This document shows, one piece after another, positions 31,031 through 33,698 of a DNA stretch of 46,812 nucleotides. The position numbers were made by a program, and so were the translations under genes. Source of the DNA: Fibrobacterota bacterium. GTDB taxonomy: Bacteria > Fibrobacterota > Fibrobacteria > UBA11236. The notes under the pieces are model-generated. The model worked only from the letters and a program-made list of their open reading frames with translations. It was not told where the DNA came from and searched no databases. The number at the start of each line of letters is the position of its first letter. Positions within the stretch are counted from its first letter, which is position 1. The DNA is taken from NCBI GenBank assembly GCA_947466585.1, contig CANIEU010000018.1, forward strand, positions 1-46,812. Direction: 5' to 3'.

Positions 31031-31975
31031 ATGGCAAAGCGTACCAAGATCTCCCTCGTCGGCGCCGGACAAATCGGCGGCACCATGGCCCTGCTGGCCG
31101 CCCAAAAACAACTCGGCGATGTCATGCTCATCGACGTGTCCGAAGGTGTGCCCCAGGGCAAGGCCCTTGACCTGCTCCACGGCGGACCGATCATCCCGAC
31201 CTCGTCGGCGCTGAGCGGCTCGAACGACTACGCCGACCTCAAGGACTCCGACGTTGTCATCGTCACCGCAGGCCTGCCGCGCAAGCCCGGCATGAGTCGC
31301 GATGACCTGCTCGATGTGAATTTTGGCATCATCAAAACGGTGGGCGAGGCGATCAAGAAGAACGCCCCGAACGCCTTCGTGCTCGTGGTCACCAACCCGC
31401 TCGATGCCATGGTCTATGCCATGCAGAAGGTCACCGGATTCCCGACCCACCGCGTGGTCGGCATGGCCGGTGTGCTCGACTCCGGCCGCTTCGCCGCCCT
31501 CGTGGCCGAAGCCATCGGCGTCTCCGCCGAAGACGTGCAGGCCCTCGTCATGGGCGGCCACGGCGACACCATGGTGCCGCTGATCCGCTATTGCTCCGTC
31601 GGCGGCATTCCCGTCACGCACTTTCTCTCTCAGGAGAAGCTTGACGCGATCTCCAAGCGCACCGCCAATGCGGGCGGCGAGGTCGTGGCCCTTCTCAAAA
31701 CAGGCTCGGCGTTTTACAGCCCGGCACTTTCCGCGATTCACATGGCCGAAGCCTACCTCAAGGACAAGAAGCGCGTCATCACCGCCGCGGCCTTCCTCAA
31801 CGGTGAATTCGGTTACTCGGGCGTGTACGCGGGCGTGCCGGTCATTCTCGGCGGTAACGGCCTCGAGAAGGTGATCGAGGTGGAACTCGACGCCGGTGAG
31901 AAGAAGGCCTTTGACGCGTCAATGGAAGCGGTGAAATCGCTGGTGGCGTATATCGACAAGAAGTTGGCGGAATAA
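31031..31975 (+). CDS. mdh: Malate dehydrogenase (LDH-like type)
   Basis: 314 residues; an AAGGACG SD sits 6 nt upstream. It interconverts malate and oxaloacetate with NAD. Motifs: [19 protein letters not shown] (NAD Rossmann), [16 protein letters not shown] with the NAD-selecting Asp, [17 protein letters not shown] (mobile loop Arg pair), [34 protein letters not shown] with the catalytic His. The LDH-like form is usual in FCB bacteria. Third gene after sucCD, giving a compact TCA unit that ends in the terminator at 32001. Confidence 0.97.
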
Positions 31976-32000
31976 GTTTTTCGACCGGAGCAGTATTGGA

Positions 32001-32029
32001 AGCGGGGGAGGCGACTCTCCCGCTTTTTT
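32001..32029 (+). terminator. Intrinsic terminator after mdh
   Basis: Stem AGCGGGGGAG/CTCTCCCGCT with a GCGA loop, followed by six T. Confidence 0.88.
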
Positions 32030-32056
32030 GTTGTCCGGTGCCCATTTCGAACGAGG

Positions 32057-32070: not shown

Positions 32071-32997
32071 ATGGTTGATTCGGAACAAGCGATGAACGAA
32101 ATGCAATCCGTCATCGCGGCGATTCGGGTGGATGACTTTCTCTTTGAAGACGTGCATTTCGAGGCGCGACTTTTGGCTATCGATCGCCTGTAATTCGAAG
32201 TGCTCGACCGTCTGGAGGGGTTGGGATCCGTTCTGAATGGAACCGGTGATCCGGCCATCTCGGATATTTGGGAAAGCGCGAGCAAGCTGACAAAGAGACT
32301 GGAAGCCTGTAACGGCACGTTGTTCCGTAAGGTGCGTGTGGGTATTCGATCGAGGTCGCCTGCAGACGAGGATTTTCTCGGGTTGCTGCGCGAAAATGCG
32401 GGCCTTGTGCCCGTAAAGGTCGCAGGACAAAACGAACCCGGCTAGGATGCGCTCGATGCCTTCGTGAACGGTCTCTTTTCCGATGCGCCGATCCCGGCCG
32501 AAGAGAACGCGCGCGAGCCGGAGATGGTGTTTTATCAGAAGACTCCCGTCCGCATTGTGCTCGAAGTTGTTGAACGCGCGGGATTCGGTGCAGACGATGT
32601 TCTGTACGACCTGGGATCGGGCCTCGGACAGGTTCCGATTCTGGCGAACCTCCTCTGCGGAGTAAAAGCCCTCGGGGTTGAGGTCGATCCGGCATACGTC
32701 CACTATTCCCGCCAATGCGTTCAGGACCTCGGAATCCGGAATGTTTCCTTCGTTGAGGCCGATGTGCGCTCCGCCGATCTGTCGGACGGCACGGTGTTCT
32801 TCCTCTATACTCCGTTCACTGGCGTTATGTTACAGGAAGTTATGGCACGGCTGCAACAGGAAGCCGAGCGCCGCAGCATTCGCATCTTCACCTATGGTCC
32901 TTGCACGTTCGAGTTCTTCGGACAAAAATGGCTGCAGTGGGAAAACGCCAAAGGGCCGCACACGCATGCCCTCGGAGTGTTTCGGAGTCGTCTTTAG
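32071..32997 (+). pseudogene. Class I SAM methyltransferase frame with two in-frame stops (TAA, TAG)
   Basis: One frame of 309 codons runs from ATG 32071 to 32997 without frameshift but holds TAA at 32191-32193 and TAG at 32443-32445. The three pieces read on as one protein: DDFLFEDVHFEARLLAIDRL, stop, FEVLDRLEGLGSVLNG ... KLTKRLEACNGTLFRKVRVGI ... AGQNEPG, stop, DALDAFVNGLFSDAPIP, then an intact Rossmann methyltransferase: EMVFYQKTPVRIVLEVVE, DVLYDLGSGLGQVPILANLL (SAM motif I), GVEVDPAYVHYSRQCVQDLG, TVFFLYTPFTGVMLQEVMARL, RIFTYGPCTFEFFGQ. From memory of the family, a Tyr precedes DALD, so TAG may replace a Tyr codon. Either a recent pseudogene or stop-codon readthrough. The C-terminal part could also start at GTG 32464. 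Confidence 0.8.
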
Positions 32998-33068: not shown

Positions 33069-33698
33069 ATGATCCTCTCCCCGCACTTTCTTGACGTTTT
33101 CGGAAAAGAACTTGCCGACGAGATCGCCGCCAAGGCGCGTTCCGCCCTTTTGCATGCCGGTGAATCCTTTATCGAGCCGGGAGCACCTGTCAAGGCAATG
33201 CCCATCGTGCTCTCGGGGTTGCTGAAAGTCTCCCGGGTGGATGACGACGGTAAAGCCTTGTTTCTGTATTATCTCGGACCCGACGAAAGCTGCGCCATGA
33301 CGTTCACCTGCTGCATGGATCAACACGTGAGCGAAATCCAGGTCGTGGCCGAGGACGACTCCGAACTCCTGTTGATTCCGGTGGAGGCGATGGGAGACTG
33401 GTTGGTCCGCTTTCCGGCGTGGAAGGCTTTTGTGATGCGCACGGTGCGCGAGCGTTACAACGAACTTTTGAAAACTATCGATCTGATCGCATTTCAGAAT
33501 CTGGATCAGCGTTTGGTGACCTACCTCAAGGAGAAAGCTCGAGCGCAAGGTGGTTCGCTCGTAAATCTTTCCCACGAAAAAATCGCCGAAGAACTTGCGA
33601 CCTCGCGCGTGGTGATTTCTCGACTTCTGAAAAAGCTCGAGAGCGACGACAAAGTTCTGCTCTTCCGCAACCAGATCAAGCTGCTGGAAGCATTGTAA
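33069..33698 (+). CDS. Crp/Fnr-family transcriptional regulator
   Basis: 209 residues. The N-terminal cyclic-nucleotide-binding fold (LLHAGESFIEPGAPVKAMPIVLSGLLKVSR, DDGKALFLYYLGPDESCAMTFTCCM) is joined by a long helix (AFVMRTVRERYNELLKTIDLIAF) to a winged helix (LDQRLVTYLKEKARAQGG, LSHEKIAEELATSRVVISRLLKKLE, recognition helix TSRVVISRLLK). The vicinal cysteines in FTCCM are typical of the FCB members that sit beside rhodanese and DUF2892 genes, and may sense redox or sulfane sulfur; this is inference. Next come OsmC, rhodanese and a DUF2892 protein. The stop codon lies inside the palindromic operator at 33694-33709. Confidence 0.92.
   Translation: MILSPHFLDVFGKELADEIAAKARSALLHAGESFIEPGAPVKAMPIVLSGLLKVSRVDDDGKALFLYYLGPDESCAMTFTCCMDQHVSEIQVVAEDDSELLLIPVEAMGDWLVRFPAWKAFVMRTVRERYNELLKTIDLIAFQNLDQRLVTYLKEKARAQGGSLVNLSHEKIAEELATSRVVISRLLKKLESDDKVLLFRNQIKLLEAL

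Follow-up and report, generated by a model that had tools for sequence, protein, structure and literature searches.

The window, a stretch of 46,812 nucleotides, belongs to a Fibrobacterota MAG of 2.24 Mb in 28 contigs that is 98% complete. On its forward strand, positions 32071 to 32997 hold an interrupted frame, recognized by translation, homolog alignment and profile match as a DOT1-like class I methyltransferase and probably a pseudogene. Translation reveals exactly two internal stops, a TAA at 32191-32193 (codon 41) and a TAG at 32443-32445 (codon 125), and the frame terminates at a TAG at 32995. A remnant of 177 codons remains open on the same strand from a GTG at 32464 to 32997, and its match to PF08123 shows that it contains the whole recognizable methyltransferase domain. 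Next to the frame, at 33069-33698 of the forward strand, lies an intact Crp/Fnr-family regulator, assigned by profile match, which is also the neighbor of the gene in a same-genus relative. Upstream is a malate/lactate dehydrogenase gene (31031-31975), followed by a terminator-like hairpin with a T run on the forward strand (31998-32027). This hairpin is very stable (z -5.18 over 31985-32040), and given its terminator-like form the methyltransferase gene was probably transcribed on its own.

The same-genus ortholog supports ATG 32071 as the start of the frame, since its own start (MESFVAFKEI...) aligns there. A sequence-only reading of the window had described an intact promoter-like box for this frame, a claim that was not borne out. 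No sigma-70-type promoter was found for it, and the putative box amounts at most to TTAATTTG, directly 5' of the start. In a 447 kb sample, TAnnTTTG boxes stood 4-8 bases before an ATG in 16 of 60 occurrences; three permuted patterns did so in 12 of 185. The form TAnATTTG, placed exactly 4 bases 5' of the ATG, is common to crp of the window's genome (33057-33069) and of genome G003 (locus L005). We take the TAnnTTTG box to resemble the Bacteroidota -7 box, and it could mean that leaderless transcripts occur in this lineage.

Relatives of the methyltransferase were sought in the genome_contigs collection, where 471 candidate stretches encode them. Bacteroidota and Chloroflexota supply most of the best 80 of these 471, and Fibrobacterota, Acidobacteriota and Gammaproteobacteria a few; the distribution of the family is patchy. 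The homologs align before, between and after the two stops and cross both in a single frame without any frameshift. Each stop is a single-codon replacement with homology on either side. In these respects the sequence-only reading, which had proposed the coordinates, the two stops, the lack of a frameshift and the family-like sequence in all three parts, was correct. Homologs carry sense codons at both sites. At the TAA, a family Glu/Asp position, 67 of the 80 aligned homologs have one of these two residues (Glu in 39, Asp in 28), and another eight have Gly. The TAG replaces a nearly invariant Tyr, present in 77 of 80; this is the Tyr that the earlier reading had placed before DALD. The homologs in the collection are uninterrupted over the part of the frame that each covers, including the same-genus ortholog (L005), which has the same neighbors, crp and osmC, and L082, whose aligned frame is short yet proved intact, with the N-terminal part present. 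The frame in the window is thus disrupted relative to intact homologs.

Within the genus, the gene is present in one of the three other genomes and was not found in the remaining two (G001 and G002). Of these two, G001 does carry crp and osmC, while in G002 the crp in question was likewise not found. A search of the window's own genome found no second copy.

On sequence grounds, the frame is assigned to the DOT1-like class I SAM methyltransferases, with an extra N-terminal region. The C-terminal remnant matches the DOT1 family (PF08123) at 27.4 bits, above the cut-off of 23, while the frame falls far short of the NCBIfam equivalog cut-offs. Sequence matches of the catalytic domain to solved structures were strongest for 5bxy (E 3.8e-16), followed by 5jwj and DOT1L (both ~4e-6). 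The first of these, the closest solved relative, is a stand-alone protein of 158 residues labelled as an RNA methyltransferase, which aligns from about profile position 145; 5jwj is labelled as a protein-lysine methyltransferase. By resemblance, protein lysine or RNA would be the candidate substrate.

The remainder of the frame shows no excess damage compared with its intact sister. Profile scores for the three segments are 0.85, 0.39 and 2.14 in the window versus 0.91, 0.33 and 2.12 in the sister, and none of 75 conserved positions carries a residue foreign to the family. In neutral simulations, no foreign residue appeared in ~10% of runs at 20 substitutions and in ~1% at 30, which limits any neutral decay to roughly 25-30 substitutions. 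Apart from the stops there is no sign of relaxed selection and no indel, and the state of the frame is compatible with a recent loss.

Other broken genes were sought in a homology scan of 447 kb of the genome, with 941 open frames taken as queries from sampled parts of G001 and G003. This gave 158 matches at ~145 distinct testable places, with 31 raw interruptions. Filtering against antisense open frames removed 24 hits; 13 stayed flagged, the methyltransferase among them. The rest were put down to antisense frames, tandem paralogs or starts extended too far, some of them on their Pfam positions and the others by inspection; for two hits in L154 without a Pfam match this assignment is tentative. 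A codon-usage scan for stops in coding flanks was too noisy at 60% GC for ranking pseudogenes, and neither of the two stops was an outlier in it. The methyltransferase is therefore the only clearly interrupted gene among the ~145 testable places, and an isolated case like this is accounted for neither by a code change nor by decay across the genome. The earlier view that a global code change is unlikely is upheld by this result. No relevant paper on pseudogenes in Fibrobacterota was found in a literature search.

The sequence-only reading had left two explanations side by side, a very young pseudogene and stop codons that are read through or suppressed. Reading of both stops, which would yield a full-length enzyme, could account for the constrained appearance of the whole frame. 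It would require that two different stop codons be read, at sites where the homologs have sense codons. The genome has 44 tRNA genes by an Rfam search, and among the anticodons assigned to them by ARAGORN none reads UAA, UAG or UGA. A tRNA-Leu with anticodon CAG was likewise not found among the 44; either Leu-UAG presumably serves CUG codons as well, or the CAG tRNA-Leu gene fell into a gap of the assembly. The genome also has two release factor genes of full size, open over 378 and 408 codons and probably encoding RF1 and RF2, and a short third member, all uninterrupted. No structured RNA was found after either stop, the folding being no stronger than that of shuffled sequences (z +0.9 after the TAA and +0.7 after the TAG). 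Neither a cognate suppressor tRNA, nor a missing release factor, nor a set of genes interrupted by the same stop codon was thus found, and no other gene was clearly interrupted at the ~145 places. Recoding is very unlikely because there is no suppressor tRNA, the release factors are full-size, structure is lacking and two different stops are involved. As far as the sequence tells, the genome has no means of making the full protein.

Two further rivals to a pseudogene were considered. An error in the MAG consensus, through a miscall or a mixture of strains, would leave the real gene intact. Such an error would fit a frame that shows no other damage and scores as its intact sister does, in a draft genome of 28 contigs of which the window is one. 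Against this, two separate stop-giving substitutions within ~250 bases and without indels are unlike general base error, and the ~145 testable places in 447 kb hold no other clear interruption; we regard a consensus error as unlikely. Slightly less probable again is that a catalytic C-terminal fragment, made from an internal start at GTG 32464 or ATG 32524, is kept as a stand-alone enzyme for which the N-terminal part is dispensable. The segment from 32464 to 32997 holds the whole recognizable domain with its conserved residues intact and could in principle fold, and 5bxy, with its 158 residues aligned from about profile position 145, is itself a stand-alone protein. However, no homolog beginning at GTG 32464 was seen among those examined, and the complete ones carry the N-terminal part. 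Inspection of the sequence 5' of the GTG gave no clear ribosome-binding site. Had the C-terminal part alone been in use for long, the N-terminal segments should also have decayed further than in the intact sister, and they have not.

We therefore favor as the probable explanation an ordinary pseudogene, formed recently by nonsense mutations in an accessory gene, the reading best supported by the intact relatives, the lack of suppressor tRNAs and of a second copy, and the undamaged remainder of the frame. In its original form the gene would have specified a class I SAM-dependent methyltransferase of two parts, ~150 N-terminal residues and a DOT1/aKMT-like catalytic domain. Two nonsense substitutions would then have arisen in the N-terminal half. 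Translation from the normal start would stop after 40 codons, and because this is ahead of the catalytic domain, no normal enzyme would be made. The loss was presumably tolerated because the gene is accessory, as the failure to find it in G001 and G002 suggests. It is mildly surprising that pure decay should have left two nonsense changes and no other damage. Nonsense changes make up about 3-4.6% of random substitutions, so that one further stop among 20 or fewer substitutions would be unremarkable. The 447 kb hold no other clear pseudogene and the genome is not visibly in mass decay, which also speaks against the young-pseudogene reading.

That an uncultured Fibrobacterota lineage probably lost an accessory methyltransferase not long ago has little significance taken alone. 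The case does offer a clean example of why a pair of in-frame stops between intact flanks need not mean recoding where a genome lacks suppressor tRNAs and is otherwise normal. In the sequence of its catalytic domain the protein is like the DOT1-like class I methyltransferases (PF08123), the archaeal protein-lysine methyltransferase aKMT (NF041081), which is among the closest known systems, and the bacterial relative 5bxy. Unlike DOT1, aKMT and 5bxy, the methyltransferase here has ~150 extra N-terminal residues and an interrupted frame. Young nonsense pseudogenes of accessory genes are familiar in bacteria, and the present case shares with them intact orthologs elsewhere, a patchy presence and stops without a compensating device. 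It differs from them in nothing notable, and its two stops without an indel place it at their young end.
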